Source: Symbiodinium sp. CCMP2592 (taxonomy: Eukaryota; Sar; Dinophyceae; Suessiales; Symbiodiniaceae). From it: a DNA stretch of 64,000 nucleotides. Below, piece after piece: positions 11,000 through 56,226 of this stretch. Positions within the stretch are counted from its first letter, which is position 1. Every line of letters starts with the position of its first letter. A program made the position numbers and the translations under genes. The stretch covers positions 1 to 64,000 of the forward strand of contig CAJNDT010003068.1 of NCBI GenBank assembly GCA_905221615.1, in the 5' to 3' direction. Below the pieces are notes generated by a model. It was not told the DNA's origin. It made no database searches and saw only the letters and a program-made list of their open reading frames with translations.

Positions 11000-11206
11000 G
11001 GTGGATGAGGGTCTTAGGTAGGTTCTTAAGGTGTTAGGTTTAGGGTGTAGGTAGGGCCTTAAGGTCTTAGGGTTTGAGGGTTTAGAGTGAGTCTTAAGAT
11101 CTTGGGATTTAGGGTTTAGGGAGGGTCTTAAAGTCTTAGGGTTTAGGGTTGAGAGAGAGTCTAAAGGTCTTAGGATTTAGGGTTTAGAGAGAGTCTTGAG
11201 GTCTTG
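11000..11206. repeat. Telomere-derived minisatellite, left part of the insertion target
   Basis: Imperfect units of about 40 bp built from TTTAGGGAGGGTCTTAAGGTCTTAGGG. The same unit continues at 42136-42330 on the far side of the retroelement, showing that the element inserted into this array. The last five bases (TCTTG, 11202-11206) are the target duplication. Confidence 0.8.
11202..11206. repeat. Target site duplication TCTTG (left)
   Basis: Directly outside the left LTR; identical to 42136-42140 outside the right LTR. Five bases is the usual Ty1/copia duplication length. Confidence 0.9.
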
Positions 11207-11638
11207 TGCGTGGGGGATTGATCTCGACTTGGTTGCTGCTCTCCCCACCAGAGCTGTAATGAATGTAGGTGTGGCTGGCTAGCACTCTCCACAGACTGGA
11301 CCCTGTCTCTCCCTCTTACTTCCACACGTGCGATCCTATGCAGGCAGAACCGGCGGCCGTTCCTTTTGCACTCACTGCCGGCGGCGGTTCGTCTGTGCAA
11401 CGGGATAGCTCTGATTGCTCAGGATAGAAGACACATATAGCACTTAGCTATGGGCATTGACTTGAGCCAAACGTTGCGTTGGCGGTCACATAGAAAGGTA
11501 AAGATGAGGGATGCGTAGCATGCCCCCTAGAGTCGAGGGACGCGTAGCGTGCCCCCTTCTCTTGCACTTTACACGGTCTTGCTCACAGCTCTTATAGTGA
11601 CACCTTAGAACTTGACAAGGCATCGCAGTCCGTTCGCA
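11207..11638 (-). repeat. 3' LTR (432 bp)
   Basis: By eye it matches 41704-42135 base for base. It begins TGCG and ends CGCA. It contains two dyad elements, ATGCGTAGCAT (11511-11521) and ACGCGTAGCGT (11540-11550), each followed by GCCCCCT. A TATAAG-like hexamer on the minus strand lies about 45 bp from the LTR 5' end; its role is uncertain because dinoflagellate promoters usually lack TATA boxes. Confidence 0.95.
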
Positions 11639-11889: not shown

Positions 11890-14800
11890 TTAGGCGTTGT
11901 CTCGCCACCATCTTCGCGTTGACGTAGGATCGCGGTCCCAGGGCCGGAGGTTCTCCTCTGGATACTGGTTCCTCTGCTTTCCTTTGTCCTTGCCTTTGTT
12001 TCGGCCTTTGCCGGCGATGTAGTCGTGGTAGGAGTTGGTGTTCCAGCCACCATGTTGCTCACCTCCGGTTCTTCCACGCCCTTTTGAAGGTCCCTTGGAT
12101 GAAGAAGCGCTTTCACGTTCCTCCGTAGTGACAGGCGTGTCCAGGATGGATGTACCACCTGGAGGAAGATAGTCAGCGGCCGAAATGTGGTGTAGGGCTT
12201 CCGTACGCTTGGTCGTCGGGTTTTGCTGTCTCTCAGCCTTGGATCTGTTCAATCTGTCCATGAAATGCGCAGGCATTTGCACACTGTGGTCCACCAGCAA
12301 GCCGATGGTCTGGACTGACTGATCAGAATGAGTCAGCAGAATACCGACGGGGTCGATGTACAAGAAGTCCACTGGTCCAGTTGGCGTTGGTCGTAGCACT
12401 GAGAATTGTTGGTGTCCCGTCACCATTGGAATCACCTCGCACAGGACGTTCAGGCAACAAAAGTGCATAGCCTTTACATCTTCATCCCTTTCGCTCTTCA
12501 AGTAAGTAGTAGGGTTGAAGTTGTCCCTGCCAATTCCCATCATGTTGGCTCCCCGTGTAAGTAAAGAAAGCATCTGGTTCGTCCGGAAGCGCTTCAAGGT
12601 GTAAGTCCCGTTGGGATCATACTGTTTGAGGTTCTCAGGTTCCTTGGCAAAGCGAATGATCTCCTCATCAGTCACATCCTTGCTCACACCCGTTTCCCTA
12701 TCCACTGCCGCCAAAGATCCCCACTTTCCAAGCACATCATAGCGCTGGCCAAGTGCGAAACTTTCCCTCATCTGAAACAACGGCATAGTCGCCCACTTTG
12801 CGAATCCTGACCAAGCCTTGTAGATGGATCTGCATACCACGTATGCCATGTACGACAGAGCGGTCATGTTCGCGTCAATGCAATGGGCATTTCGCTTTCC
12901 AGAATAGTAAGATGGCTGCATGGCGGTACGTGCAAGTTGTAGCTCAGGATCGATGTTCAAAGACTGGCCGGTAATGAAGACGGGACGACGTTCCTGTGCG
13001 ATTGCTTCTGGAACTGCGTCATCAAAGTCCTCTCCAGGCTCGATGTCCATTTCTTCATCAGGTTCCTGTTCTGGATCGTCTTCCGCGATGACAGATGGTT
13101 CTGGGATTTCTTCAGGTTCCGCAACGGTCTCTACCTCCATGGCTTCCTGCTCCTCTTCGGGCGCCTCAGGCACTGCGGCTGCTGCGGCTTCCATTGTCTG
13201 AGCAATGAAGTCACTGGGGATCTCCGTAGGAGTCTCCCGTTGTGGAGAACCTTGGTAATATCCGCTCGAAATGAACTGTGACCAGCAAGACGTGCATCGG
13301 GAGAAACATGCTGGAACGATGTTGTAGCATGCCGGGCATACCCTCATTCTCCGTCCATCCTCGTCTCTGCGTAGGTCTTCGGGTCGCCAATTCTTGATGA
13401 CAAACTTGATTCCTTTGTCCATGTAGTGATGCCGAACCGTGTTCTCCCTGTGGGACTCCAGGACAGTCGTGAGGTCACGAATGATCTGCTCCTTGCTTGT
13501 GTCGTGGGGTCCAGGAGGCATCTCGCAAAGCAATTCCATGATCTTGCTTGGCGTTCGGTATCTCTCGAACTCGGGAAGCAACGGTGATGCATTGTAGTCC
13601 AACACCAGCTCTTTCTCCAACCTTTCATCGTAGATCTTTTCCACCAGAGCGAAAGAGTGTGTATCTCGAGGATCAGGGACGCAAAACCATACCTCCTTGA
13701 CGAAATGGAAAGGTATCGTTCGACCAACGATCATGATGCCGCTGTCTGTGATACGTCCATCCTCTCGTGCAAGATCTTGCGATGGGACATGAAGGACCGC
13801 CAATGGCATGTGCTTGGCGTCTCGTCCATGTACTCGCATCTTGGTCGTTGCGTTCCGGTGATCGAACGGCGCAAACACCCCCCAATAGCTGTGGAGTCTG
13901 CCACCTTGGTTGCCTCGGAATTGGCGCCTATGGTCGAAGTCCCCGTCGGGGTCCTCCGAACCAGGCATGATGCCTTGCGTGACAATGGAATCCAAGTTGC
14001 GGCATGCCGTAGCGTGGAACGCACCTCCAAGACGTTGCAAGAGGGTCATAGATGGAGATATTGCGAACCTGTTCTTGTCCAACTGAAGCAAATTGTTCTG
14101 GGGATCTGAGTGCGCAGAGTGACCACTCGTAGCCCGAACTGCCCATGGCTTCACCCAGCCGTTGCATAGGTTCAGGTACCTCTGGCCATGCCGGCAATGA
14201 TCGTTGTTCTGGATCTCCGTGATCTGGTCCTGAACCGATACCAACCTGTTCGAACCTGCTGATCCAAGAACTTCCGTGCCGGGGTCCTTCACTCTCACAC
14301 CCAGGAACTGCAACCGAATCTTGGCCTTGTTGCGTTTCGTGGCTGCAATCATGTTCCCCTGGAACAATAGCTGAAGTCTTTCATTGTACACTCTCTTCTT
14401 CTGTTGATCATCGGTCCTTGAGACCCCTTCGGTGATGCGTCTGCTTTCATGGGTCCATAGTGGCTCATGCCTCACCAAGTCTTCGATCATCACCCATCCT
14501 CCTTCATCACATTTGATGACACTGTTGAATGCCACCTGGCACCTGTTGTCAAGCCATTCCGAGCCTGGGCGCCTGGCGATTCTGTGGCGCAAGTCAGACT
14601 GGATGCATGATAGCGCCCAATCCGCGTTCAATCTGCGCTGACGAGTGATGTTGCGAAGGACAACTTCGTTCACGATGTCCCACCGATTGTTGATGAAGCT
14701 TGCACCCTTGGTTGGGATCAGGTCGAGAATCCCGCACCGGATTGGCCTTCCGCCGCCGATGGATTCATAGCCTGGATTGGTGTAGCTATGAGTGTTTTCA

Positions 14801-17800
14801 TCGTAAGCAAAGCTAGGACGGTCTCCTCGTTGAGGTAGGCGTCGGTCGCGATGGTCCGAAAGCTGCTCAATGATGTCCACCACTCGCTGGCTATTCTCTG
14901 GTCCCGATTCCTGCAGTGGTACGCCACAAGCATCATTTAGGCCCCGACGATTCTCCACATCCGTGCAGAGATTGTGTTTGTTCTCATAACGGATCAAGAC
15001 CACATCACCCCGTACGGCTTCGCCTCCGCGTCGCGGTCGGGCTTTGGCCTTGGGTCGTCGGTCCGAGGATGCAACACTCACATGATCTGTGGTGTCAACG
15101 TCCATTGGCTCAGCCTCTTGTGTAGGTACTCGACGTGGATATCGAAGAAGACTTTCCTTGATAATCTGGACGCCTCGAAGTACCAGATCCCGGGTTGCAG
15201 CATTTTCTGTGCAATTGGACAGAGTGTGTAGATCACTGCCACAAGCGACACAGAACGTGATGCGGTCGCTTCCGACTGACATTTCGCCCTGAGCGAGTAC
15301 GCCAACATAGTCCTGAAGCTGCGTGACAAATCCTTCACGAATTGCATGCCTGGGATCAGGGCCTTCTGCACCTTGCTCTTCTTCGGGTTGCGCATCCACA
15401 TCCACATCCTGTGCAGGTATTGGTGGAGCAACTGAGAACCCTGGATCGTCCGTGACGTTGTCAGCGGCCTGTGTCTCGTCGGTTCTCGCAATCTCTACAG
15501 GGTAGATATCACCATCGACGATCACTGTGAAATCAATCACGAGGTCAGCGGACATGTTGTTGACGATCTCAGCGACTGCTTCATTCTTCTTGGGCGGTGT
15601 CCTTTTGCGCGGGGAGTCAACCGTGATCAGCTCGATAGCTTCGGCCGACGCGTAGCGGAAGAATGATCTTTCGATTCCCCTCGCGCACGCATTTGCTCCC
15701 TCAAGGCCACCCCAATTCGGAAAATGACTTGGGTGTCTCATTGCAATTGTAAGAAGCCCGAGCGCCAGCTCCACTGTGTCACCCAGGAGCTCTTCCTTGG
15801 GCAAGACTGACCCTCTGTAGCATTCTTGGCGCTCTTCCGGAGTCAAAAGCATCCTCATGAAACCAGCATAAGCGCAGTTCCCGGCATCGTAGTAGCAGAT
15901 GTAGCATGTCTTGCCTTCGGAGTCGTACCCTCTGTCCCACGCCAACTGTTTGGCCTTTCCCCATGCCGCGTACTCGATGGCCTGACTGGCTGTGATTCGG
16001 AGACCACCGTAGTGAGAAACCGTCTTGCCGATGTCTTCATAGACCATCTCTGCACAAACTTTGAGGAACTCCTTGATGTCCACGCGAGGATCCACGAATT
16101 GAAGCCTCAGGTCATAAAGGTGCTTTGCGCAAGCCAAGGTGTACTTCTGGGACGTGATCAAGTCATTGAAGGAGCTGATTTGATGCTGCATCTTCAAGGC
16201 TGAAGTATGCGCGCACCCAATGCAGTGTCCAGGATACCCGTTTCCGGTCGGCTTGAAGAAGGCTTGTGCGTAGCACTCAGCCAACTTCATTGCTTCACAT
16301 CCAGGGCAATAGAACGTTCTCCCTTTGACATAACCAGTGTTCAGGGTCGCATAGGTGTCGATCCTGAACCAGTAGTGCCTGTTGTCGTAGTAGGCCTCGG
16401 GGACGGTCATGGCGATGTCAAAATCCTGCCAGGTGACTGTGGACGATTCAGCGACCGTGTCACCCTGGGCACCCGACCTGATCTGTTGCTGCTGTTCCCC
16501 CGTAAACCATGTCTGCGAAATCTTGGTGGACGTCTTGACTTCACTCTTGTCCTCCCAAATCTCGACAAGCGACGGGTGAGCGACTGAGTCGGTTCGGACT
16601 GTTTCGTCCCATGAGCGAACTTTCGATGCCTCAACAAAGCACGTGGATACCATCTTCTCGCAGAACAGCTGCTTCTCGTAGATAGCTAGGCCCAATTTGA
16701 ACCTGACCCGATTGTCCGGTGGTGGCACCTTTTCGACTGACAGTGTATGCACGCCTGACGACGCATGTTTCGCCTGGCTATACATTCTTGACCAAAACGA
16801 AGATCCATGAATCACCACGCATGCCCGGGCCCGCAACTCCAGTTCAATATACATTCCCAGCGCGTGGAAGCCGTTGAACATAGAAGCTTTCTGTCGAAGG
16901 TAATTGCTGGCTGCTCCTACGAACCGTAAGTCATGATTGATGTTGACAATTGGAGGGCGCGTGGTACGCTTCCCTGCCGCAATGATGGGGTCAACGTACG
17001 TGACCTTGAGCTGTCGCTGCAAGTCAGCACGAATCGCTGCTCCGTCTCCGACCTCACTCATCGGAAATGATATGTTCTCGATGAGGATCGCCTGGAGAGA
17101 CAGATGGTAATGCAACGTGACGGTTGCAAGCTGCTCTTCAGTCAAGCCATCCAATGTCTCATTCACAGATTCCAACGATCCCTTTGTGACTTGGAAGTTG
17201 TAGTTGGCACCTGCGGTGATCGACGGGCTCACAATGTAGATCTCACTCCATCCATGCATGACGAGATTTTCTCTCACTGTATGCGACGACCCTCTGGTCC
17301 TTGCGACCATGTCAAAGTCTTGGACGAGGATTGTGCATTGAGAGCGCATAGTCGCGGCATCAGGCTTGCCACCCATACCCAAACTATTGCGAAATCCGTT
17401 CAGCGTGTTCATGGTATTGATCCTTGCTTCTGCCGGAATTTCATCGTTGTCGACAAGATCGCTGTCTGCCTCGATCATCACTGCCGAGGTAAGCATTGGA
17501 GGAGAAGGAAGATGCACGCACGACACCAATGCCAATGCATGGTACAGCCGCGAATACATCCGTAACCACATCTTCGTGCTCAGCTTCACGTAGACCTTCA
17601 GGTTGAGACCCTTGTCGTCACTTTGAGAGACGGAACGAATCCTTGCCAAGTAGGTCACCAGTCTTCTGACGTAATGCTGAATCGGTGTGGTCCCCACGTC
17701 GTGGTTGGCCACGAACTTTGGCGTCTCATCAATGGTAGGTGGGTACTCGTCTTGATCACGGGTCGTCGCCAGCAAGCTCGAGCGACAGCCCTTTTCATCG

Positions 17801-19392
17801 ATGTTGACGTAATGGTACCAACTTTCCTGAGCGCCAGCGGGGATTGGAGCTTCCTCCCATGTCGGTTGCGATGGTTCCTCTTCCGGTTGCGAAGTCGATG
17901 GTTGTGGAGGAGGTGCCGCAGAAGATGATGACGCCGATGCCGTTGCCTCGTCCGTCCTCGCCCTCTTTGGTCCGTGGCTAGGGGTGGCTCGAGGCTCGGT
18001 AGCGGATCCTTGTGTTTGTCCCGGCGTTCTTCCATGCTCAGGGTGCACGATTCCTTCCGGTTCGAGGTTGCTTGCCGTAGGCATCGCCACCCTCCCCCTT
18101 GAGTACACCCAGCTAGGATGCCGTTGAAGGTTGGGCGGAAATAGGCCATCATCTTGCATAAGCGGACTCGGTGCCCCCATCTGTTGGAATTCTGCTTCCC
18201 ATATGCTCAACGTGGCGCGTTTGGTAGAGCAGTCGACCACATACCCAGATTCAACTCCGCACTGATTCCAGGTGTAGCTTCGGAACGCATCCGGCAATTG
18301 GAAACCGTTCCTGTCTTGATCTGCACATACAGCATCCACATGGTGCTTGAGGAAAGAATACGTGGTGTAGTCGGAATCAGGGAGCACATCGTTGGACCAT
18401 CTGTAATGCGGGTGTCCAGTATCTGGATCAACCCATGATACGTAGGAATGAAGCACGTGGAGACAGACACTGAACGCCTGGAGCGAGTTCATCGCAAAGG
18501 CGAGCGGATGTCCCATGCCTTGAGGCATTGTGCGCATCATCAAAGCCAGCTGGTGAACGTTGAGTGGCGTAGCGCCATCGTTGTTCGCTGCACATTCTTG
18601 GTTGTAGGTCCGTAGTCCATACCCAGTGTGTTTTGCGAACATGTACATCAGCTTGCACACCCTACATAACGTAGGCTCCGCCAACAGGTCTGATTGGTCA
18701 GGTGCTCTACCCGACATTGGCAACTTGTGGTAGTAGTCCTGATTCACCGTATACCATTGTTGAATTCTCGTGTCTGTCACAGTCTGGTAGGGCGTCTCCA
18801 CGGAGTTGATGAGAACGGCGAGGTTGTAGTACCCGTCCGCACTGACGATGTTCCTTGTTGCAGTGTTCAAGTCGAACCGAACTTGCTTTCGTTCTTGTTC
18901 CAGTTCAACCACAGCCAATTTTGCATCATCGCGGATCACTTCCTCATCCACCATGAACCTGGTGATGGCATTGAACTTCCCCTCGTAGTCAGCAACAATG
19001 TGTTTGAGACCTCCACCAAACTTGATGACCATGGCGAGTATCTCCCCATAGGGTTTGTCCATGTACTCCTCAGGGGCAGCAAATAAGCAAGCTTTGAGGA
19101 TTTCTCGGACTCGAATGGAAAGATCCCCTCCTGGCGACAGATTTGCACACGTGAACAGCAAGACCAACGGAGGTGCTTTGAACGCTGCCCATGTGCGAAT
19201 GAGATCATTGTCGACCACTTTGTCTTTCGTAATCTTCGGCGGGAGCGAAACGCTCTGCGACGAATCCCCAGAATACATCTCCAGGAACTTGTGGAACTTC
19301 AGAAACGTTCGCATCATCCCACCAGACGGGAAAACTTCTTCGTGGTCCACTCCTTCGAAGGCCAGCTCGTAGGCATTGTAGCTTTCAGCCAT
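11890..19392 (-). CDS. Retroelement ORF2: 2500-aa protein with Tpt1/KptA-like domain (left copy, intact)
   Basis: An uninterrupted 2500-codon cistron after pol, in another frame. Its ATG lies in GAGCCATGG, a strong start context, about 110 nt after the pol stop. Visible parts: helical N-terminal region (1-420); Pro/Ser/Gln-rich linker with a basic GPKRAR patch (about 455-540); a large unrecognised region (540-1300) with CxxC pairs near 1030-1060 and 1160-1175; an acidic linker (about 1310-1345); a CxxC cluster near 1385; a Tpt1/KptA-like region (about 1600-1908) with L-R1602-H1603, DEGGW1633, R1693, R1753-ATSGH, H1793-AT and R1832-LH; a zinc-ribbon-like CPAC...CTSC (about 2018-2037); a long Glu/Asp-rich stretch (2065-2130); an unrecognised domain (2140-2360); and a Gly/Lys/Arg tail suited to RNA binding. 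No signal peptide or membrane segment is seen, so it is not env-like. The KptA family removes 2'-phosphate from spliced RNA using NAD; its role here is inference. Confidence 0.85.
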   Translation of the reverse strand: MAESYNAYELAFEGVDHEEVFPSGGMMRTFLKFHKFLEMYSGDSSQSVSLPPKITKDKVVDNDLIRTWAAFKAPPLVLLFTCANLSPGGDLSIRVREILKACLFAAPEEYMDKPYGEILAMVIKFGGGLKHIVADYEGKFNAITRFMVDEEVIRDDAKLAVVELEQERKQVRFDLNTATRNIVSADGYYNLAVLINSVETPYQTVTDTRIQQWYTVNQDYYHKLPMSGRAPDQSDLLAEPTLCRVCKLMYMFAKHTGYGLRTYNQECAANNDGATPLNVHQLALMMRTMPQGMGHPLAFAMNSLQAFSVCLHVLHSYVSWVDPDTGHPHYRWSNDVLPDSDYTTYSFLKHHVDAVCADQDRNGFQLPDAFRSYTWNQCGVESGYVVDCSTKRATLSIWEAEFQQMGAPSPLMQDDGLFPPNLQRHPSWVYSRGRVAMPTASNLEPEGIVHPEHGRTPGQTQGSATEPRATPSHGPKRARTDEATASASSSSAAPPPQPSTSQPEEEPSQPTWEEAPIPAGAQESWYHYVNIDEKGCRSSLLATTRDQDEYPPTIDETPKFVANHDVGTTPIQHYVRRLVTYLARIRSVSQSDDKGLNLKVYVKLSTKMWLRMYSRLYHALALVSCVHLPSPPMLTSAVMIEADSDLVDNDEIPAEARINTMNTLNGFRNSLGMGGKPDAATMRSQCTILVQDFDMVARTRGSSHTVRENLVMHGWSEIYIVSPSITAGANYNFQVTKGSLESVNETLDGLTEEQLATVTLHYHLSLQAILIENISFPMSEVGDGAAIRADLQRQLKVTYVDPIIAAGKRTTRPPIVNINHDLRFVGAASNYLRQKASMFNGFHALGMYIELELRARACVVIHGSSFWSRMYSQAKHASSGVHTLSVEKVPPPDNRVRFKLGLAIYEKQLFCEKMVSTCFVEASKVRSWDETVRTDSVAHPSLVEIWEDKSEVKTSTKISQTWFTGEQQQQIRSGAQGDTVAESSTVTWQDFDIAMTVPEAYYDNRHYWFRIDTYATLNTGYVKGRTFYCPGCEAMKLAECYAQAFFKPTGNGYPGHCIGCAHTSALKMQHQISSFNDLITSQKYTLACAKHLYDLRLQFVDPRVDIKEFLKVCAEMVYEDIGKTVSHYGGLRITASQAIEYAAWGKAKQLAWDRGYDSEGKTCYICYYDAGNCAYAGFMRMLLTPEERQECYRGSVLPKEELLGDTVELALGLLTIAMRHPSHFPNWGGLEGANACARGIERSFFRYASAEAIELITVDSPRKRTPPKKNEAVAEIVNNMSADLVIDFTVIVDGDIYPVEIARTDETQAADNVTDDPGFSVAPPIPAQDVDVDAQPEEEQGAEGPDPRHAIREGFVTQLQDYVGVLAQGEMSVGSDRITFCVACGSDLHTLSNCTENAATRDLVLRGVQIIKESLLRYPRRVPTQEAEPMDVDTTDHVSVASSDRRPKAKARPRRGGEAVRGDVVLIRYENKHNLCTDVENRRGLNDACGVPLQESGPENSQRVVDIIEQLSDHRDRRLPQRGDRPSFAYDENTHSYTNPGYESIGGGRPIRCGILDLIPTKGASFINNRWDIVNEVVLRNITRQRRLNADWALSCIQSDLRHRIARRPGSEWLDNRCQVAFNSVIKCDEGGWVMIEDLVRHEPLWTHESRRITEGVSRTDDQQKKRVYNERLQLLFQGNMIAATKRNKAKIRLQFLGVRVKDPGTEVLGSAGSNRLVSVQDQITEIQNNDHCRHGQRYLNLCNGWVKPWAVRATSGHSAHSDPQNNLLQLDKNRFAISPSMTLLQRLGGAFHATACRNLDSIVTQGIMPGSEDPDGDFDHRRQFRGNQGGRLHSYWGVFAPFDHRNATTKMRVHGRDAKHMPLAVLHVPSQDLAREDGRITDSGIMIVGRTIPFHFVKEVWFCVPDPRDTHSFALVEKIYDERLEKELVLDYNASPLLPEFERYRTPSKIMELLCEMPPGPHDTSKEQIIRDLTTVLESHRENTVRHHYMDKGIKFVIKNWRPEDLRRDEDGRRMRVCPACYNIVPACFSRCTSCWSQFISSGYYQGSPQRETPTEIPSDFIAQTMEAAAAAVPEAPEEEQEAMEVETVAEPEEIPEPSVIAEDDPEQEPDEEMDIEPGEDFDDAVPEAIAQERRPVFITGQSLNIDPELQLARTAMQPSYYSGKRNAHCIDANMTALSYMAYVVCRSIYKAWSGFAKWATMPLFQMRESFALGQRYDVLGKWGSLAAVDRETGVSKDVTDEEIIRFAKEPENLKQYDPNGTYTLKRFRTNQMLSLLTRGANMMGIGRDNFNPTTYLKSERDEDVKAMHFCCLNVLCEVIPMVTGHQQFSVLRPTPTGPVDFLYIDPVGILLTHSDQSVQTIGLLVDHSVQMPAHFMDRLNRSKAERQQNPTTKRTEALHHISAADYLPPGGTSILDTPVTTEERESASSSKGPSKGRGRTGGEQHGGWNTNSYHDYIAGKGRNKGKDKGKQRNQYPEENLRPWDRDPTSTRRWWRDNA
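13669..14592 (-). other. Tpt1/KptA-like RNA 2'-phosphotransferase domain within ORF2
   Basis: Residues about 1600-1908 of ORF2. In the family, an N-terminal winged-helix half carries an LRH motif and a D-x-D/G-G-W/Y motif, then a K-x-R-F type motif; the C-terminal ADP-ribosyltransferase-like half has QGHS, HGT and R-x-HVH motifs and ends with a VWL...VP strand. Here I see LRH (1601-1603), DEGGWV (1629-1634), KIRLQF with R1693, RATSGHS (1753-1759), HAT (1793-1795), GRLHSYW with R1832, then PLAVLHV and VWFCVP. The four catalytic positions (Arg-His-Arg-Arg) are thus all present, with large spacers. The Gln before GHS and the Gly of HGT are replaced (S and A). Family assignment by motif reading only. 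Confidence 0.65.
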
Positions 19393-19504: not shown

Positions 19505-19924
19505 TTAGTTGTTCCTTAGTTGGGGCTGTCTATTAGCCCCTTCATCAGCGTCTACACACTGATGTTGCTGCCATGCAATGTCCTCGGATTCATGTGCAAC
19601 ATGACTGACACTGACATGAGCTCGAACAAGGCTGCGAACATTCCTCGCAATTGACCGCCATGAGACATCAATGCGCTGCGACAAACTGTTCTTCGAATCA
19701 TGGTCCAAGCAATCATCCGGTCTCATCACCAAACGGTCCGCTTCAGGCATGTTAGAGAACATGATCCTGCGTCCACCACCATCGCCATCAGCACCAACAT
19801 GATCATCAACCTTAACCTTCGTCACCTTGCCACTTGAAACAAGAGCATGCAACTCTGGCCAAGACCAACATGAACATGAAGAAGGCATGTCAAGCGAAAA
19901 TAGACGTCGGAAAATTCCGCACAC
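19505..19924 (-). pseudogene. Tail of pol, left copy, out of frame after a 1-bp loss
   Basis: Carries the last residues of the pol extension (SLDMPSSCSCW... to the stop at 19505). Compared with the right copy, one base is missing next to the A run at 19897-19900, which moves this tail out of the main pol frame. Unrecognised, rich in Asp/Ser/Val. Confidence 0.7.
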
Positions 19925-22900
19925 TTCTTCAGCAGGCGTTTGAGAGATTTCAAGACACTTCTGAAAACCTTGTACTTCCCACCAGAACGTTTTTCACCCC
20001 CCACGCAAGCCCCTTCACTACTTCCAGGACCAGCACCTGATCGCAAAAGCGATGCCACGAATAGCACAGGTGTGCGCAGGTCGTTCCGGCACGCATCCTT
20101 CATCGTACCGATAAGGCTGTCCTCATCGGCCTTGGAGCTGATCAGCTCCTTGCAAGTTATGCGAGAGCAACCCTTAGTGGGCTTAGGTACGGCGTAGCCA
20201 TTACCCAAGCCACAGAGGTCAACAATCATGCGGTCTGGCTTTCGTCCACCAGCCTTCGACGGCATGGCTACCAATCTCCCATCGCCAGTTGCCTGAAATT
20301 TCAAGGCTTTAAGCAATCTTCTGGAGATTTGGCTAGTCAACTCGCATTTATCAGATCGATCCTTAGCGTCCGAATCAGTCATGTGCAAATGTTTGGACGA
20401 GCACACGTCAGACGACTTAGGATGCAGCGCGACGTTTGCGGCAATGTACTCCCATTCATCCTTGCAGTAGCCGAGCTCAACGGCGGTTCCGGGAGATACA
20501 GGATCCCGAAAGGTATAACGTTGCCCGTGAGTGCATCCTTGGATCTTGATGCTCTTCCACATGGCATCTTCCTGAAGTCCCTTGTACTGCTTGGTTTCCT
20601 GGACTGGTACTCGAGGAGGCACTTCGATGATGATTTGGAACCCCCATGATGCCGCTCTGCGCGCAATTCTTTGGACGACCTCCCCCCATGGGTAGTCTGT
20701 CCGCAATTTGGCCCTTTCAGGGTTGTCAGCGATTTTCCGACTCAGCCACGAATTCTTGCCCAACACCCCTGCACCAATGAAGATTACGGAGTTAGGGTTG
20801 TCTTTCCTTGCTTCCACCACATCAAAGATGTAGGCGCACATGGCGTCGTCAACTTCTCGCCCCATACTCAGAACATTTACTTGCAGCCCAGGGTCGTAGT
20901 GAGAATCGGGAGCATGCTGGGCGATGCAATCCTTGCCTGGAGCATACTCATTCCACCAGTTCTCCTCATCGACTCCTATCAATGTCCATACCGTCACTGC
21001 CTTTGGAGCATCTTTGATAGTGATACGGTACTTCCACCGGCTGTAAGGATTCTTGTAAGCATGGACCAACCTTCCATCGTGGTCGAGGAATTGGATCACC
21101 AGACCCTCCTTGGGCTTGTTTTCGGCGAAATTGACCACGTGAGGCACAATTGCTCCATCATATCCTTGATATTCCCTTTTCTGTTCCGCCGCATCATGCC
21201 ATACATGCCATACATCTTCGTACACCGACGACCATTGGTCATAACCAAATTGAGAGGCTTGACTTTTGGACTGGCCGTTGAAACAAAATCCCTGGTGTAA
21301 TGTAAAGCCCTGGTACCCCCCATGGATGGCACGCGCCAGTGTGACAACCACCGCTCGCCATTTGGCGGGCAGGGCGCGCACATAAGACTGGCCTAGAGGC
21401 GGTTCAGGAATAGGCAAAAACGGCGGCGCAAGGACGTCCGCAATGGCAGCGGGGCGCAAATGCCCCCGCACGGGATGGTACTGAAACACAGCACGTTCCA
21501 CGTAGCGGTCGAACTTGCCCGGTGTGTCAAGGATAGCAGCACGATCCTCCATCTGGTGCCACTGCCCTTCACGAAGAATCCAAGTCGACCGAAGGTAACG
21601 ACCAGGCGGCAACGCAGAAGGCGGCCCCCGCAACATGCGCGGGAACTTGACAACCAGGATGGGGTCCACACTGTCATGTTCTTGCAAGCCTTCCTTACTC
21701 GACAATCCAGCGCGATACAACACCTGAGGGAGGATCGGCGTCTGCGTGTAAGGAAAACAAGGCACCTCGCTCTTGAACGAGTAGTGCTGCTGACCCTTCT
21801 CATCCGTGCTTTGGGTATGAGTAGGGCGCATCAGATCCATAATCTCTTGGGAGCCGATGAGATCCGGCGGAAAGATGTTGATGAGCTGACACGCATGTGT
21901 CCAGGACACGGAATCCTTGAACGACTTGGTGTGTATGTCCGCTGACATCTTGGCAGTGACCTCATAGGCAAGAGAAACGTAACCTTCCTGAAAGATAGAA
22001 TGCATCCATCCAATGCAGATACCGTGGGTACGTTCCAAGTGACGCATAGTCGGATTCTTGCCCGTGCGAATCACCCCGATCATGGTCTGGTTGTCGTCGT
22101 AGAAGACGAAGTTGGGGTCTTGCCCCCCAAGCTGCTGCCATAACGTGATAGCAGGCAATCCAAGACGTGACATGGCAAAGTCGGCCGCGACAATCTCGGC
22201 CTCAGGTGTGGAATGACTCAAGCATCCCTGCCTTTTGCTAAGTCCCGCCAAGGGAAATCTTGTGTGAGAACCTTGAATGTGCAAATGAGCACCGGAGGTA
22301 GATTTCAAGCTTTCTCCACAACCCGCATAGTCCGCATCTGCAAACAGCCCGATGGACGAGTCCTCCAAGGAGTTCCCGACCCATCCAATCATCATGTGAT
22401 GTTTGGACTGGTGCACATAGGCCATGAGATGATGAAGAAGAGCATCCTCCTTCTTGGTCCATTTCGTGATCTTGCGTGCGAGATTGTTGATACTGCGCAG
22501 AAGATCAAAGCGGCAGATGCGCGCGGCATAAAGCAATTTCATGAGAATGCTGGCTGCCTGCGGAGCAAGTGCGCCGCGATTGGCCTCGTTGATTTCCTCT
22601 TCCTCGGGCGCCTTGGGAATAGGTGGAGGCGGAACGAGCCGACCATCCTTATCAACAGGCATGGTGTGTCCACACCACGTGCATCGATGGCTTTTACCTG
22701 ACTGTGCCGGAGCGCGAGCTGGGTGATTCTTAGTCTCCTCAGCCGGACTCGGCGATGGTACCGTCTTGAATTTTGTCGGATCGAACCCAGTCACGTCGCA
22801 GTACTTCTTGACTGTCATGTCCAGGTACGTCTCCATGTCGTAGGTAACGGTCTGCACCTTCGTTTTGTCATGCAACGTTGCCTCGCCCTTGGAGATGCGA

Positions 22901-24267
22901 CAACCCAGATACAAGCCCAGCGGCGTTTCTTCTTCCAATCGAAGTTCTTGGCGCAGCATGTCCCAACCCTTGGGTAGATTCTCTTTGGGTCCTGCCATCT
23001 TGAGATCATCCACGTAGATGACAAGTAAGAGCTTCATTTGCGGGTGGAAATACAATGATGGCCATTCATCGCCAATCGGCTTGAACCCTACTTTCTGTAC
23101 CGCGGTGTGGCAATGTTGTTCCCACATGGTTCCTGCGTCAGGATGTCCATATAGAGCTTTGATCAGGCGACATACCGGCCTACGGAATTTGTGCCGTTTC
23201 GCAGATGGATGCCAGGCTTCATCAGGCAGTTCAACCCAACATGGAGTGCCCGATAATCTCGCCTGAATGTATGCTTGGATAGCATCCGCCATCTGGACAT
23301 CGTTGCCAGGAAGGCATCCGTAGTAATCTGCCCATCGTGAGGCGTCAAACGTAGCCGGGGAATTCCCCAAATCCTGAAACAATGCGGCTTCCATATTCTG
23401 GTCTTTGACCTGATCACCGAGTAGTACACCTCGCCCCTTGAACTTCCTGGCAGGATCGTCCTCTTTGAGCTGATAGTTCTTCTCGTATATCAGTCCATGT
23501 ACTCGCGCCATGTGTACTTTCTCACCTTTCTTCTTTGCCTCAGCGACGACGTCGTCATATTCACGCGTAGTTGAGAAGTCAAACACCTCTTGGTCCCACA
23601 ATCCCTTCCATTCTTTCATGAAAGCTTCCATGGCCTTGGGATTGTTGATCATCTCCTTGCGTGTGACGGGTCGAGTGACCATGGCATTGAAGCACGATCC
23701 TCCTGCATGATTCTTTTCCCGATGTACGTTTCTGTGAGAAGTCGTACACGGCATAGAAGGAATCCAGTTATCATCCATGACCATATGCGCCGGAACGGCC
23801 GGCACGACATCTGCCAAGAATTGTTCCTGTGTATATTGATCCACATAGGACTGTGCCCATGACCAACCATCGTCGTCATCAACGGATACGTTGAGTTGCA
23901 GATCAATTTCTTCACATGGGACAATCTTGGGAAAGATCATGTTGTCTAAAATCTTGGTGACTATCTTCTTTCCTATCACAGCCTTCTTCCGGTCTTTCTT
24001 GGCAACTCGAGCTTTGTCTCGCTTTTCTTTCTTGTATGCTGCCTTCTTCTCCGTTTCGCTCATCTTCTTCCATGCTTCCGGAGAATAAGAATGGATAGGT
24101 CGCCGTGTAGGAAGAGTTCGTCGACCGTCACTTCGGATCTTATACGGAACTCCCCTTTTGTCGATCTTGCAGGCTTCACCGTCATCGGTGAGATATACAA
24201 TGCCGTCCCCTTTCTTCCCCGTACTCCAATGTTCAATCTCCTCGGGAGCCAACTTCTTTTCTTTCAA
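19822..24267 (-). CDS. pol: Pol, left copy: reverse transcriptase, RNase H and C-terminal extension
   Basis: A 1481-codon frame. After a basic linker, the copia-type reverse transcriptase spans about 23690-22880, with the first catalytic Asp in DVQMADAIQAY and the YVDD box at 23005-23016. RNase H follows (about 22350-21920) with DADYAG, TPEAEIVAAD, YDDNQT and a closing ADIHTK motif typical of copia. The remaining roughly 700 residues (21900-19822) belong to no family I recognise. The frame is cut from the upstream gag-pro-int frame by a missing G at 24339-24341 (GGG here, GGGG at 35553-35556) and loses its true C-terminus at 19900. A 9-bp duplication (CCATACATG) is present near 21199-21216. 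Both breaks are single-base, so either assembly error or real decay fits. Confidence 0.85.
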   Translation of the reverse strand: MKEKKLAPEEIEHWSTGKKGDGIVYLTDDGEACKIDKRGVPYKIRSDGRRTLPTRRPIHSYSPEAWKKMSETEKKAAYKKEKRDKARVAKKDRKKAVIGKKIVTKILDNMIFPKIVPCEEIDLQLNVSVDDDDGWSWAQSYVDQYTQEQFLADVVPAVPAHMVMDDNWIPSMPCTTSHRNVHREKNHAGGSCFNAMVTRPVTRKEMINNPKAMEAFMKEWKGLWDQEVFDFSTTREYDDVVAEAKKKGEKVHMARVHGLIYEKNYQLKEDDPARKFKGRGVLLGDQVKDQNMEAALFQDLGNSPATFDASRWADYYGCLPGNDVQMADAIQAYIQARLSGTPCWVELPDEAWHPSAKRHKFRRPVCRLIKALYGHPDAGTMWEQHCHTAVQKVGFKPIGDEWPSLYFHPQMKLLLVIYVDDLKMAGPKENLPKGWDMLRQELRLEEETPLGLYLGCRISKGEATLHDKTKVQTVTYDMETYLDMTVKKYCDVTGFDPTKFKTVPSPSPAEETKNHPARAPAQSGKSHRCTWCGHTMPVDKDGRLVPPPPIPKAPEEEEINEANRGALAPQAASILMKLLYAARICRFDLLRSINNLARKITKWTKKEDALLHHLMAYVHQSKHHMMIGWVGNSLEDSSIGLFADADYAGCGESLKSTSGAHLHIQGSHTRFPLAGLSKRQGCLSHSTPEAEIVAADFAMSRLGLPAITLWQQLGGQDPNFVFYDDNQTMIGVIRTGKNPTMRHLERTHGICIGWMHSIFQEGYVSLAYEVTAKMSADIHTKSFKDSVSWTHACQLINIFPPDLIGSQEIMDLMRPTHTQSTDEKGQQHYSFKSEVPCFPYTQTPILPQVLYRAGLSSKEGLQEHDSVDPILVVKFPRMLRGPPSALPPGRYLRSTWILREGQWHQMEDRAAILDTPGKFDRYVERAVFQYHPVRGHLRPAAIADVLAPPFLPIPEPPLGQSYVRALPAKWRAVVVTLARAIHGGYQGFTLHQGFCFNGQSKSQASQFGYDQWSSVYEDVWHVWHDAAEQKREYQGYDGAIVPHVVNFAENKPKEGLVIQFLDHDGRLVHAYKNPYSRWKYRITIKDAPKAVTVWTLIGVDEENWWNEYAPGKDCIAQHAPDSHYDPGLQVNVLSMGREVDDAMCAYIFDVVEARKDNPNSVIFIGAGVLGKNSWLSRKIADNPERAKLRTDYPWGEVVQRIARRAASWGFQIIIEVPPRVPVQETKQYKGLQEDAMWKSIKIQGCTHGQRYTFRDPVSPGTAVELGYCKDEWEYIAANVALHPKSSDVCSSKHLHMTDSDAKDRSDKCELTSQISRRLLKALKFQATGDGRLVAMPSKAGGRKPDRMIVDLCGLGNGYAVPKPTKGCSRITCKELISSKADEDSLIGTMKDACRNDLRTPVLFVASLLRSGAGPGSSEGACVGGEKRSGGKYKVFRSVLKSLKRLLKKCAEFSDVYFRLTCLLHVHVGLGQSCMLLFQVAR

Positions 24268-27200
24268 GATCTTGATAATCTCTCCAGGTTCTTCGATGTC
24301 TCCTTCGGGGATGAGTCTACCGGTTGGACCGACTTCGCGGGCGATCGTCGATCTTTCCCAGTGACCTTTGGTTCAGAAGGAGGCGGTGCTGCACGTAGAC
24401 CCAGCTCTTCGTCTAGTTCTTCGAGTCTTTTGTCTCCTATGGCATCAATAGCTTCATGTTCTGCTGACTTGAAGACTTCGCCGAGCGGCTCCGTCTCAAT
24501 GTCAGATGGATCTATGTCCTGTAAGTCAGGATCTTCTCCGGGATCCGGTGGAGGAAGAAGTCCATTTGGATCATCGTCATCCCCGTCGCCACCATCTCCT
24601 CCAGGCGGACCGTCATCACCGTCATCGATGTCATTTATCTCCTTGCCAGCGAGGTCAACGTTGTCCCTGAGTCCCTCAATGGTTGAATTCATCCTTTCGT
24701 ACTCGGCTTTCAGGGGAAACGTTATCTCCTCTGGGAAGTAGATAACTTCTGTCTCGTACGGTCTCATCAACTTCCTGGGAACAGATGCGTCCATCGACAG
24801 GTTCGCGTTGGCAAATTCCTTCATATCCCAGACGCGATACTTCTTGGACCACCCTTGACCAGCAGTGATGATATATCCGGCAAAAATACCTGGAATCCCC
24901 TTTGGATCGAATTTGTTGCCATATGTCTTCGGCCTTGTGTCCGTCGGCTTGAAGAAGACTTTGGCACCAAAGGGTATGGCTTTTCCCTCGAAGTCCTTTC
25001 CAGTCATTCGCTTCCATGCTGAATCACCATCGCCCTCCACGTCTTCAACGTTGAGGTTCTGCATCACGCAATTAAGCGCAAAGGACCAGTATTGAGCGGG
25101 CAATCCGGCGTGTAGCATGGATGCTGCGACTGTGTTGATCACTTCTTGATTTGATCGTTCAGCGAGTGAATTGTTACTGGGTTTCCCTGGAAGGGAATGA
25201 TCTATTACGATCTTCAACTGCGCCATAGCTGAATCGAACTCTGGTGCTTCATCACTATACGCCATATGAATCTTACGTCTTCCCATGAGGCGTCTGATGG
25301 CCATGACGACTTCATCAGTGCTCCTTGAAGCCGTGGGAATCGCTGCGATCATTTTGGTGGCGATGTCCCTGATGACTAGAACTTCACGTGCTCCGTCATC
25401 GAGTCCAATGCCTGCTTCGGCGGCCTTGCGCATGTCAAGGAAGTCGAACGTCACAAAATCTCCCCAGTGTTTGATCACACGCTGAAATGCACCTCGTTGT
25501 GTTCGCAAGTGCTTCATCTTCGCGCGTATGCACGATTCGCAATATGGATTGCGGTAGCGATGAGTACACAGATGTGCCAATGTCTTCGCTTCGGCTTTCA
25601 GTGTTCCGACTCTGGCCTTGCGGCTCGGCGCACCGTCGCCTTCCACATCAATGATCACCTCATCGTCACCATCCAATGGAATTTCACCCACTCCTTTTCC
25701 TTCGTCGTCGTCCGGAGGGCGTCCGGCCTCGGACTCTGGTACTTCTTCTATAGGAGGTTCTTGGGGTTCAGGATCAGGAGGTCGTTCGTGATCATCACCT
25801 TCTTCTTCTGCTTCGATCTCGCCCGGTGCAGCTTCAGCGGCAGCTGCGACGCTGACGTCAACATTGCCCGCTGTCAACGCACCCTTGAAGATTTCGGTGA
25901 TCGCTTTGGCCTCCGGATCATCATGAACCAATGACTTGGAACTTCCGGCACGAACGTACGGGATGTCACCGTTCACGAACAGAGATATTCTCTTGCCCTG
26001 CGGGTTGATCATGAATGGTTCCCTTCCGGGTGGCCACACAAACCCGTAGTTGAAGTTCATACATCTCTTGCCTATGGAAAGCACCGACGGTGTGTCATCC
26101 AACACATAAGCGTTGATCGGTTCCTCGAACGCCTCAGTCTGGAAATTCGACACGAGATCGGTATCGGTGATTCCATTGGCTGTCTGAAATGATATGGGCT
26201 CTGGAGTCACGAGTGTTTCGAGACTGTGCTTCTCGAGCTTCTTCTGAGATATGAGGTCATGACCACACCCAGTGTCCATGAGAAACTTGATCTTCTTCTT
26301 GAGGATGACTGGTTGAACCATGCATTTAAATACGCCTTGATTGATGATCCGTTTGCTGTGTGCAGCATCGAGTTCGCGCTCAACGATGGAATCCTCACCG
26401 TCGTAGAACGAAACTTCTTCCACGCGAGACGTTCCTGGGATTCGTACGAATGAAACTCGATCTCCGCATTGATCATCATCGTCGTCAACCATGTCTCTCA
26501 TGATCTGTGCCCTCAATCTCTCTTTGTGCTTGGCGAATTCCAAGCTCACGGCGCGATCCTCATCATTGATAAACGCTTCCATGTCGACGTACTTCACCTT
26601 CCGCTCTTTGTCTTTCTTCGATCGTCTAGGACACGAAGAAATGAACTTCACGTCATCGGCAAATGTCACATTGCGCTTTATCACTTTTCGGGTCGACGTA
26701 GTCGTTCCCGAGGATTCGTCATCTGTTGAACAATCCGAATCAGCGTCGCTGTCAACTGATGGACAATCTGACTCCTCCTCATCTTGTCTTGAAGATCGCT
26801 TCCATATAGCCGGAGCTGATGGATTCCACCTTCGACACAATCTGATGGCGGGTGCAGCAGGGAGTGCCTTGGCCTTGGCATTCGGCTTCGCTGGAGCTGC
26901 CTTTGCTTCGGATTTAGCTTTAGCTTTTGCCTTTGGTTCCGGAGCTGGGGTAGCCGCTGCCTCATGCTTAAAAGGACAATTCTCTCTTGAGCACGAGCCT
27001 GTGTTCTTGAACGAGTAGCATATCCTGTTTCCTCCTCCTCCAGATTGACTTGGAGTTCTCGTCCTCGGCGTGAAGGGTCGCTCTGGAGTCTTCTTCGAGT
27101 GACTGAATGGACACTTATCACCATTTCGACACCCTGCATCTGTGAAATGGAACTTGCAGCGGATTTGCTTCTTGCTTTTGTCACCTCTGTTGTCCGCTGA

Positions 27201-27669
27201 CTCACTCCTCTTCTTCTTCTTGGGCTTTGGCTTGGTCTTCGCATGACTCTTCGCTTTGCTTTGAGGTAGTACAGGTGTTGCTTTATCCGGCTTGGTCGGC
27301 GAAGCCTTGACCTTGGCGGATGGAGCTGCGTTAGGCGTAGGTTTCTCGGGTACCTTGGCCGGTGCAGCAAGCAAATCCTTGCCCTCAAGCATCTGGCGCA
27401 AGCCAATTTGAGTCTGAGTGAGATTTGACTGTTCTCGTTTCCGCATGATGGTACGATCAATGATCTTCATCATGTTGTCGTACGATCGATCTTCATGATT
27501 GTAGGGCAGGTGTTCACAGTGCATGCCCAAGTCCATTTTCATTGCGGGCGAGTCCTTGATCTTGCTGTACAAGCAATCACGGAGAGCTGTTTTGGATGGA
27601 ATGTCCTCTGGTCTCATCCGTCCCAGAACTTCCAACCACGTCTGCTTGAACGTATGGAGCTTGTTGTCG
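24264..27669 (-). CDS. gag-pol: Gag C-terminus, zinc fingers, protease and integrase (left copy, truncated at the gap)
   Basis: The reading frame enters from the assembly gap in the capsid-like region and runs through two CCCH zinc fingers (27099-27158, spacing C-X8-C-X5-C-X3-H; 26964-27020, C-X8-C-X4-C-X3-H), an aspartic protease with DTG at 26268-26276, a long acidic Pro/Glu linker, and integrase (about 25590-25080) with an H-X3-H...C-X2-C zinc motif, FDFLDM, YSDEAPEF and NNSLAERSNQEV as the D, D, E positions. Here gag and pol are joined in one frame, so the element encodes a single gag-pol polyprotein as in other copia elements. The frame is lost at 24339-24341 by one base relative to the right copy. 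Confidence 0.85.
26964..27158 (-). other. Tandem CCCH zinc fingers in gag-pol (left copy, intact)
   Basis: Finger 1 has C-X8-C-X5-C-X3-H; finger 2 has C-X8-C-X4-C-X3-H. CCCH fingers bind single-stranded RNA. They sit where most copia elements have a CCHC zinc knuckle, which I do not see. Confidence 0.8.
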
Positions 27670-27769
27670 NNNNNNNNNNNNNNNNNNNNNNNNNNNNNNN
27701 NNNNNNNNNNNNNNNNNNNNNNNNNNNNNNNNNNNNNNNNNNNNNNNNNNNNNNNNNNNNNNNNNNNNN
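27670..27769. other. Assembly gap (100 N)
   Basis: Exactly 100 N, the conventional placeholder for a gap of unknown size. The sequence on its left matches up to 38912; the sequence on its right matches from 16549 on. Confidence 0.99.
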
Positions 27770-30614
27770 GTCCTCCCAAATCTCGACAAGCGACGGGTGA
27801 GCGACTGAGTCGGTTCGGACTGTTTCGTCCCATGAGCGAACTTTCGATGCCTCCACAAAGCACGTGGATACCATCTTCTCGCAGAACAGCTGCTTCTCGT
27901 AGATAGCGAGGCCCAATTTGAACCTGACCCGATTGTCCGGTGGTGGCACCTTTTCGACTGACAGTGTATGCACGCCTGACGAAGCATGTTTCGCCTGGCT
28001 ATACATTCTTGACCAAAACGAAGATCCATGAATCACCACGCATGCTCGGGCCCGCAACTCCAGTTCAATATACATTCCCAGCGCGTGGAAGCCGTTGAAC
28101 ATAGAAGCTTTCTGTCGAAGGTAATTGCTGGCTGCTCCTACGAAACCGTAAGTCAGGATTGATGTTGACAATGGAGGCCGTGGTACGCTTCCCCCTGCCG
28201 CAATGATGGGGTCAACGTACGTGACCTTGAGCTGTCGCTGCAAGTCAGCACGAATCGCTGCGCCGTCTCCGACCTCACTCATCGGAAATGATATGTTCTC
28301 GATGAGGATCGCCTGGAGAGACAGATGGTAATGCAACGTGACGGTTGCAAGCTGCTCTTCAGTCAAGCCATCCAATGTCTCATTCACAGATTCCAACGAT
28401 CCCTTCGTAACTTGGAAGTTGTAGTTGGCACCTGCGGTGATCGACGGGCTCACAATGTAGATCTCACTCCATCCATGCATGACGAGATTCTCCCTCACTG
28501 TATGCGATGACCCTCTGGTCCTTGCGACCATGTCAAAGTCTTGGACGAGGATCGTGCATTGAGCGCGCATAGTCGCGGCATCAGGCTTGCCACCCATACC
28601 CAAACTATTGCGAAATCCGTTCAGCGTGTTCATGGTATTGATCCTTGCTTCTGCCGGAATTTCATCGTTGTCGACAAGATCGCTGTCTGCCTCGATCATC
28701 ACTGCCGAGGTAAGCATTGGAGGAGAAGGAAGCTGCACGCACGACACCAATGCCAATGCATGGTACAGCCGTGAATACATCCGTAACCACATCTTCGTGC
28801 TCAGCTTCACGTAGACCTTCAGGTTGAGACCCTTGTCGTCACTTTGAGAGACGGAACGAATCCTTGCCAATTAGGTCACCAGTCTTCTGACGTAATGCTG
28901 AATCGGTGTGGTCCCCACGTCGTGGTTGGCCACGAACTTTGGCGTCTCATCAATGGTAGGTGGGTACTCGTCTTGATCACGGGTCGTCGCCAGCAAGCTC
29001 GAGCGACAGCCCTTTTCATCGATGTTGACATAATGGTACCAACTTTCCTGAGCGCCAGCGGGTATTGGAGCTTCCTCCCATGTCGGTTGCGATGGTTCCT
29101 CTTCCGGTTGCGAAGTCGATGGTTGTGGAGGAGGTGCCGCAGAAGATGATGACGCCGATGCCGTTGCCTCGTCCGTCCTCGCCCTCTTTGGTCCGTGGCT
29201 AGGGGTGGCTCGAGGCTCGGTAGCGGATCCTTGTGTTTGTCCCGGCGTTCTTCCATGCTCAGGGTGCACGATTCCTTCCGGTTCGAGGTTGCTTGCCGTA
29301 GGCATCGCCACCCTCCCCCTTGAGTACACCCAGCTAGGATGCCGTTGAAGGTTGGGCGGAAATAGGCCATCATCTTGCATAAGCGGACTCGGTGCCCCCA
29401 TCTGTTGGAATTCTGCTTCCCATATGCTCAACGTGGCGCGTTTGGTAGAGCAGTCGACCACATACCCAGATTCAACTCCACACTGATTCCAGGTGTAGCT
29501 ACGGAACGCATCCGGCAATTGGAAACCGTGCCTGTCTTGATCTGCACATACAGCATCCACATGGTGCTTGAGGAAAGAATACGTGGTGTAGTCGGAATCA
29601 GGGAGCACATCGTTGGACCATCTGTAATGCGGGTGTCCAGTATCTGGATCAACCCATGATACGTAGGAATGAAGCACGTGGAGACAGACACTGAACGCCT
29701 GGAGCGAGTTCATCGCAAAGGCGAGTGGATGTCCCATGCCTTGAGGCATTGTGCGCATCATCAAAGCCAGCTGATGAACGTTGATTGGCGTAGCGCCATC
29801 GTTGTTCTCTGCACATTCTTGGTTGTAGGTCCGTAGTCCATACCCAGTGTGTTTTGCGAACATGTACATCAGCTTGCACACCCTACATAACGTAGGCTCC
29901 GCCAACAGGTCTGATTGGTCAGGTGCTCTGCCCGACATTGGCAACTTGTGGTAGTAGTCCTGATTCACCGTATACCATTGTTGAATTCTCGTGTCTGTCA
30001 CAGTCTGGTAGGGCGTCTCCACGGAGTTGATGAGAACGGCGAGGTTGTAGTACCCGTCCGCACTGACGATGTTCCTTGTTGCAGTGTTCAAGTCGAACCG
30101 AACTTGTTTTCGTTCTTGTTCCAGTTCAACTACAGCCAATTTTTGCATCATCGCGGATCACTTCCTCATCCACCATAAACCTGGTGATGGCATTGAACTT
30201 CCCCTCGTAGTCAGCAACAATGTGTTTGAGACCTCCACCAAACTTGATGACCATGGCGAGTATCTCCCCATAGGGTTTGTCCATGTACTCCTCAGGGGCA
30301 GCAAATAAGCAAGCTTTGAGGTTTTCTCGGACTCGAATGGAAAGATCCCCTCCTGGCGACAGATTTGCACACGTGAACAGCAAGACCAACGGAGGTGCTT
30401 TGAACGCTGCCCATGTGCGAATGAGATCATTGTCGACCACTTTGTCTTTCGTAATCTTCGGCGGGAGCGAAACGCTCTGCGACGAATCCCCAGCATACAT
30501 CTCCAGGAACTTGTGGAACTTCAGAAACGTTCGCATCATCCCACCAGACGGGAAAACTTCTTCGTGGTCCACTCCTTCGAAGGCCAGCTCGTAGGCATTG
30601 TAGCTTTCATCCAT
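27770..30614 (-). pseudogene. ORF2, right copy: N-terminal 950 residues, broken and cut by the gap
   Basis: Same protein as ORF2 at 11890-19392, starting at 30614 (MDESYN...). Three lesions: an extra T in a T run at about 30139-30143 shifts the frame; a TAC-to-TAA change at about 28871 gives a stop where the left copy reads Tyr; and clustered compensating indels at about 28141-28195 change some 15 residues without net frame loss. It is truncated at the gap before the KptA-like region. The indel cluster lies close to the contig start, where consensus quality may be poor. Confidence 0.8.
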
Positions 30615-41639: not shown

Positions 41640-41703
41640 TGTGGTCGTAGTAGATCAAGTAGTCGTTGCTGTAGAAAGGCAGAGCCGCGTACGGCTGATA
41701 ACC
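41640..41703 (-). other. Short retroelement leader (64 nt)
   Basis: Lies between the end of the 5' LTR and the first gag ATG; includes the primer-binding candidate. Confidence 0.6.
41684..41703 (-). promoter_or_regulatory. Candidate primer-binding site GGTTATCAGCCGTACGCGGC
   Basis: It directly follows the 5' LTR on the minus strand, where the tRNA primer should anneal. It does not start with TGG as sites for an intact tRNA 3' end do. Its complement ends CTGATAACC, like an anticodon loop plus 3' stem (CUNAUAACC), so priming by a cleaved tRNA half, as in Drosophila copia, is possible. Confidence 0.4.
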
Positions 41704-42135
41704 TGCGTGGGGGATTGATCTCGACTTGGTTGCTGCTCTCCCCACCAGAGCTGTAATGAATGTAGGTGTGGCTGGCTAGCACTCTCCACAGACTGGACCC
41801 TGTCTCTCCCTCTTACTTCCACACGTGCGATCCTATGCAGGCAGAACCGGCGGCCGTTCCTTTTGCACTCACTGCCGGCGGCGGTTCGTCTGTGCAACGG
41901 GATAGCTCTGATTGCTCAGGATAGAAGACACATATAGCACTTAGCTATGGGCATTGACTTGAGCCAAACGTTGCGTTGGCGGTCACATAGAAAGGTAAAG
42001 ATGAGGGATGCGTAGCATGCCCCCTAGAGTCGAGGGACGCGTAGCGTGCCCCCTTCTCTTGCACTTTACACGGTCTTGCTCACAGCTCTTATAGTGACAC
42101 CTTAGAACTTGACAAGGCATCGCAGTCCGTTCGCA
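41704..42135 (-). repeat. 5' LTR (432 bp)
   Basis: Identical by eye to 11207-11638. The dyad elements are at 42008-42018 and 42037-42047. It should carry promoter and polyadenylation signals; I see no strong consensus for either. Confidence 0.95.
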
Positions 42136-42140
42136 TCTTG
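42136..42140. repeat. Target site duplication TCTTG (right)
   Basis: Matches 11202-11206. Confidence 0.9.
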
Positions 42141-42694: not shown

Positions 42695-42711
42695 CAGACA
42701 GAAATAGAGAG

Positions 42712-42754
<43 letters not shown>

Positions 42755-55839: not shown

Positions 55840-56226
<387 letters not shown>

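Follow-up and report, generated by a model that had tools for sequence, protein, structure and literature searches.

KptA-type RNA 2'-phosphotransferase domains are present in at least two classes of retroelement, copia and LINE, of Symbiodinium sp. CCMP2592. The copia case lies in the window, the stretch of 64,000 nucleotides analysed here (contig CAJNDT010003068.1, positions 1 to 64,000), where ORF2, a long frame downstream of pol, encodes a divergent Tpt1/KptA domain that is probably an active RNA 2'-phosphotransferase.

A copia-type element with an additional ORF

The element occupies the minus strand and comprises the following features, from its 5' to its 3' end:

42136-42140, minus: 5-bp target-site duplication, 5' side, CAAGA, directly outside the LTR
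41704-42135, minus: 5' LTR, 432 bp, TG..CA ends
41678-41703, minus: presumed primer-binding site, located by eye
30727-41599, minus: second gag-pol copy in two frames (38363-41599 and 30727-38703)
28871-30151, minus: second ORF2 copy, cut off before the KptA part
27670-27769, no strand: run of 100 N, scaffold join of the two partial copies
24264-27863, minus: gag-pol frame with CCCH fingers, interrupted by the N run
19822-24267, minus: pol frame, copia-type reverse transcriptase RVT_2 (Pfam E 2.1e-8, 34.5 bits, cut-off 31.6)
11890-19392, minus: ORF2, 2,500 aa, 3' of pol, with the KptA domain near residues 1601-1908
11207-11638, minus: 3' LTR, 100% identical to 41704-42135
11202-11206, minus: 5-bp target-site duplication, 3' side, CAAGA, directly outside the LTR

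The LTR pair and its short target-site duplication fit a Ty1/copia LTR retrotransposon, and RVT_2 exceeds the Pfam cut-off in both element copies (34.5 and 33.4 bits against 31.6). In the gag-pol frame at 24264-27863, matches to an aspartic-protease-like domain, SH3_retrovirus, and rve_3 are all weak and below their cut-offs; the domain order fits an integrase upstream of the reverse transcriptase, as far as the sub-cut-off rve_3 and SH3_retrovirus matches go. The first-pass annotation had placed the KptA domain inside a retrotransposon ORF, and the RVT_2 pol, identical LTRs, and target duplication bear this out: the KptA-bearing ORF2 is part of a copia-type LTR retrotransposon. RVT_2, LTRs with TG..CA ends, and a 5-bp target duplication are shared with Ty1/copia elements in general. 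Unlike these, the window element has an extra 2,500-aa ORF after pol with an RNA-repair domain, and it is about 19.7 kb long after subtraction of one 11.2-kb internal unit containing the N run. A Pfam scan of ORF2 listed no domain besides KptA. Further cysteine clusters are visible by eye in its translation (CPGC..CIGC, CVACGSDLHTLSNC, and CPAC..CTSC), none with a Pfam match. Degenerate CCCTAAA-like repeats flank the element on both sides (11100-11206 and 42136-42200), and short-period tandem repeats occur at 56034-56242, with a related stretch at 42696-42788.

Between the LTRs there is, in addition, a partial second copy of 11 kb, connected at the N run. The two copies differ by a dS of 0.04-0.06, and since they lie 4-6% apart at synonymous sites, the assembly has not simply duplicated a single copy here. 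Between them, dN/dS is 0.132 for the gag-side frame, 0.164 for pol, and 0.132 for the N-terminal part that both ORF2 copies share, the only part of ORF2 compared because the second copy ends before the KptA stretch. With 0.132 against 0.164, this shared part of ORF2 appears to be under selection about as strict as that on pol. The intact long frame had initially been read as a sign of selection. That reading is supported by dN/dS for N-terminal ORF2 and by conservation of the catalytic tetrad described below.

The KptA domain of ORF2

The domain and its motif positions are arranged as follows:

14584-14589, minus: R1602-H1603, tetrad (among 61 aligned homologues, R in 46 of 46 and H in 43 of 46 that cover the site)
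14314-14316, minus: R1693 of the K-x-R motif, tetrad (R in 50 of 51 covering homologues)
14116-14136, minus: RATSGHS, counterpart of RAxQGHS
14014-14016, minus: H1793 of HAT, which aligns with and corresponds to HGT of the NAD lobe (H in 37 of 39 covering homologues)
13897-13899, minus: R1832, fourth tetrad residue (R in 32 of 33 covering homologues)
13669-14592, minus: whole KptA/Tpt1-like domain, ORF2 residues 1601-1908, assigned by PF01885, fold match, and motif positions

Scanned alone, the domain matches PF01885 with 29.1 and 29.6 bits against a cut-off of 26, whereas the entire 2,500-aa ORF reaches 23.1 bits and stays under it. The structure model, built for 13600-14700, predicts a winged-helix RNA lobe followed by an ART-type NAD lobe. 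A fold search with this model matched a solved Tpt1 chain nearly end to end at 13-20% identity (first 15 rows); ADP-ribosylating toxins rank after the Tpt1 rows, and their matched range is confined to the NAD lobe. Profile score and fold thus agree with the Tpt1/KptA identity proposed in the first-pass annotation, which had suggested an HMM check and a structural comparison.

The motifs follow one another along ORF2 in the order originally described. The Arg-His-Arg-Arg tetrad is formed, in order, by R1602, H1603, R1693, and R1832, with R1602-H1603 equivalent to Arg18-His19 of CthTpt1 in the published definition of the tetrad (PMC6333775). These four positions, also named at the outset, are all kept in 17 of the 18 homologues that cover them, and the lone exception at R1832 is P0034, which has T instead. 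Identity to the ORF2 domain is 33-58% in 51 of 52 aligned homologues.

The domain diverges from canonical members in several respects. From R1693 to the R of RATSGHS the distance is 60 residues, compared with 11-17 in canonical members, so in the copia KptA the interval from K-x-R to RATSGHS is longer by 43-49 residues; the structure model predicts strands at 130-136 and 182-190 around this spacing. Secondary motifs are altered as well, HGT to HAT and R-x-H-V-H to R-L-H-S-Y. Set against Tpt1/KptA/TRPT1 proteins (PF01885), the domain is alike in its two-lobe fold, motif order, and tetrad, but differs in the extra residues, in HAT for HGT, and in being embedded in a retrotransposon protein.

Relatives of ORF2

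A search with the domain yielded five long proteins, and a search with the resulting five-row alignment added 56 more (61 in total). Five of the 61 come from Symbiodinium sp. KB8 or S. microadriaticum (P0009, P0010, P0011, P0022, and P0031); the other 56 are presumably dinoflagellate too. P0009 (Symbiodinium sp. KB8) combines RVT_2 and an ORF2 homologue in a single predicted protein, with 67.6% identity to the window in pol and 25-54% in pieces of ORF2. In P0010 (Symbiodinium), the end of pol (61.5% identity to the window) is joined to an ORF2 homologue (42.5%). Because both proteins pair pol with an ORF2 homologue, the association of pol and KptA is old. KptA does not stand out from the remainder of ORF2 in conservation, with identities of 76.9 versus 74.8% in P0007, 46.1 versus 45.5% in P0008, and 46.0 versus 45.2% in P0010. 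Among viral contigs searched for relatives, none of 21 pattern matches was confirmed, and the ORF2 profile had no match in the PDB.

KptA domains in LINE-type families

A PF01885 search of the genome (1.098 Gb in 5,383 contigs) returned at least 152 matches; the scoring covered 150 of the 1,550 candidates from the first look, and one internal TGA is present in each of two listed matches. Besides L002, 18 KptA-repeat loci were examined, taken from the best of the match list and hence a non-random sample. They fall into two LINE-type families.

LINE-B comprises eight loci (L009-L015 and L021). Its first ORF, read from L022 with L009 and from the next unit in L013, contains a weak endonuclease match, RVT_1 (2.2e-22 and 1.4e-22), and C2H2-finger matches. 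The second ORF has 665 aa, and its final third is KptA (1.7e-39). Relative to L009, five copies are 98-99% identical over 5.8-6.6 kb and L014 is 91% identical over 6.5 kb, while the L021 alignment is broken into shorter pieces at 81-82%. For the 665-aa protein, a PARP domain next to KptA was considered and rejected: the match was below cut-off (2.4e-4; 0.037 in L021) and disappeared in all three copies in which that half was scanned alone.

LINE-C comprises ten loci (L001, L003, L004, L005, L007, and L016-L020), grouped by how similar their KptA domains are to that of L016 (98-100% identity in nine, 78% in L001). In both loci scanned, L016 and L018, a single ORF of 1,501 or 1,397 aa carries KptA (1.2e-44, 2.8e-44) and an endonuclease (1.3e-10, 1.3e-8). 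RVT_1 lies in the next ORF, at 1.2e-9 in L016 and 3.8e-6 in L018, the latter under the cut-off, with 6.1e-9 in its continuation L028. L020 has KptA and endonuclease in two overlapping frames. KptA is thus placed downstream of the reverse transcriptase in LINE-B and within the endonuclease ORF in LINE-C. The KptA-bearing stretches of representative loci are:

L009 3406-5400: LINE-B
L014 3312-5312: LINE-B
L021 3402-5426: LINE-B
L016 4279-8781: LINE-C

All 18 LINE copies have a stop-free domain with LRH, K-x-R, IRAxQGHS, HGT, and R-x-H-[VI]-H-F intact. Ten of 11 pairs show a KptA dN/dS of 0.06-0.13 at dS 0.02-1.0, and the eleventh has zero non-synonymous changes. The LINE KptA copies are under strong purifying selection.

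Both LINE types also match UCH-type ubiquitin hydrolases (L009 3-1322, 8e-10; L028 2433-3806, 1.3e-8), and the first ORF of L009 ends in a UCH-like peptidase part. By its matches, UCH would be a second captured-looking enzyme in these elements. A separate locus, L002 (1288-2013, minus), holds a 242-aa open frame with KptA at 4.9e-48 that groups with canonical sequences and not with the LINE copies (83/84 support); it is a candidate host gene or exon.

Descent and number of captures

In a KptA tree of 22 rows, with references P0069, P0070, and P0076 left out, the copia, LINE-B, and LINE-C domains form three separate, well supported groups. LINE-C clusters with other canonical sequences and leaves LINE-B outside (92/90 support); the tree program warns that the position of LINE-B could be a long-branch artefact. 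The copia domain sits on a very long branch (5.5). We had considered LINE-B and LINE-C unrelated, an assumption dropped since their endonucleases are 33%, reverse transcriptases 27%, and UCH parts 30% identical. Being distantly related, the two families do not count as independent witnesses. Their KptA domains are 34% identical, and because endonuclease, reverse transcriptase, and UCH part are about as diverged, a single old capture followed by a later domain move is conceivable for the two. The number of captures may be anything from one to three.

Proposed function and alternative explanations

The most likely role of KptA in these elements is RNA repair serving reverse transcription, performed by a divergent but probably active domain in the copia element and by canonical versions in the LINE families; we hold this reading with roughly even confidence. 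In the proposed sequence, metal-independent RNases would cut the element RNA, and a tRNA-ligase-type enzyme would reseal it, or a primer end would be left 2'-phosphorylated. KptA would then strip the 2'-phosphate using NAD, and the element's own reverse transcriptase could read through or start. A ligation-site 2'-phosphate is reported as one that "should be removed by CIP or 2'-phosphotransferase" for efficient reverse transcription (PMC9138997). Copia and LINE elements both reverse transcribe an RNA template but do not both use a tRNA primer; these two points together favour healing of the template, perhaps also of the primer. Activity, substrate, and benefit to the element are what we infer here. 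The divergence of the copia version, with a Pfam score barely over the cut-off even for the domain alone, would speak against an enzyme. More broadly, 2'-phosphorylated RNA might hinder reverse transcription generally in dinoflagellate-like algae, an obstacle that at least two retroelement classes, perhaps in three events, cleared by taking up KptA, so that retrotransposition became coupled to element-encoded RNA repair. We put this extension forward as tentative and somewhat doubtful.

The strongest rival is counter-defence. Here KptA would repair tRNAs and mRNAs, of the element or the host, after cleavage by a host RNase response, or would place ADP-ribose on nucleic-acid ends and thereby hide element RNA or cDNA, with reverse transcription itself independent of KptA. 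Viral and phage KptA proteins have been interpreted in this way (PMC9503650), and presence in copia and LINE elements alike fits a common host threat as well as a common enzymatic problem; even so, we consider this account unlikely. A role in primer processing seems improbable. In this case the copia reverse transcriptase would start on half of an internally cleaved tRNA that carries a 2'-phosphate at its 3' end, and KptA would free that end. The sequence following the 5' LTR lacks the initial TGG expected for pairing with a tRNA CCA end, and part of the complement of 41678-41703 resembles an anticodon arm by eye, a hint of internal-tRNA priming; Drosophila copia reportedly primes internally on a tRNA. 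The upstream part of the match is, however, out of register with a normal D-arm, for which reason tRNA-Ile as the primer was dropped as unproved, and a tRNA search found none in the window or in 23 fetched loci. LINE-type elements do not prime with tRNA yet also carry KptA, which weakens any role limited to a tRNA primer. Moreover, Tpt1 is described as acting on an internal 2'-phosphate with a neighbouring 3'-phosphate (PMC6333775).

Two further explanations concern the domain itself. The winged-helix and ART folds could be a relic, an RNA-binding or structural part of ORF2 that has lost catalysis. The lost secondary motif residues of the diverged copia version would suit such a relic, as would the lack of excess conservation over the remaining ORF2. 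Yet the tetrad persists in nearly all covering homologues despite their low overall identity, and the LINE versions are canonical; we judge a relic quite improbable. Least credible is a chance motif match, or misannotation of a segment unrelated to KptA. The whole-ORF score below the Pfam cut-off, weak PDB profile matches, and two full-length homologues with no Pfam match would point that way, but Tpt1/KptA is indicated by domain-level scans of family members, by profile-profile comparison, and by fold, and a chance match was rejected on these grounds.

Relation to known systems and significance

KptA domains are known from jumbo phages, sawfly nucleopolyhedroviruses, Bodo saltans virus, and a few positive-strand RNA virus polyproteins (PMC9503650). 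These resemble the present case in being carried by a mobile or viral genome, some inside a polyprotein. The hosts of the domain there are viruses and phages, in contrast to retrotransposons; the main text of that paper does not contain "transposon", and its two "retro" matches concern 2H domains. Capture of a cellular enzyme by Symbiodinium retrotransposons is itself familiar from SymbioLINE-Dnmt and SymbioDIRS-Dnmt3, in which DNA methyltransferase was captured recurrently with key residues kept (PMC5890265). Those elements differ in carrying DNMT instead of KptA and in being LINE and DIRS only, Copia being said to lack DNMT; the paper mentions neither phosphotransferase, Tpt1, UCH, nor ubiquitin. 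Within open-licence PMC, no report of KptA in a retrotransposon was found among the matches listed. The KptA enzyme and enzyme capture by retrotransposons are known, and their repeated combination is, as far as that literature shows, new.

Captured enzymes in retrotransposons can reveal limits on element copying. In Symbiodinium, the capture of DNMT has been linked to methylation-based silencing (PMC5890265), and KptA in copia and LINE elements would implicate RNA damage or RNA ligation as such a limit. The natural substrate is an open question for many KptA enzymes, including that of E. coli (PMC6333775), and a selfish element needing KptA would give a direct assay for it. RNA fixing may help retroelements copy themselves.
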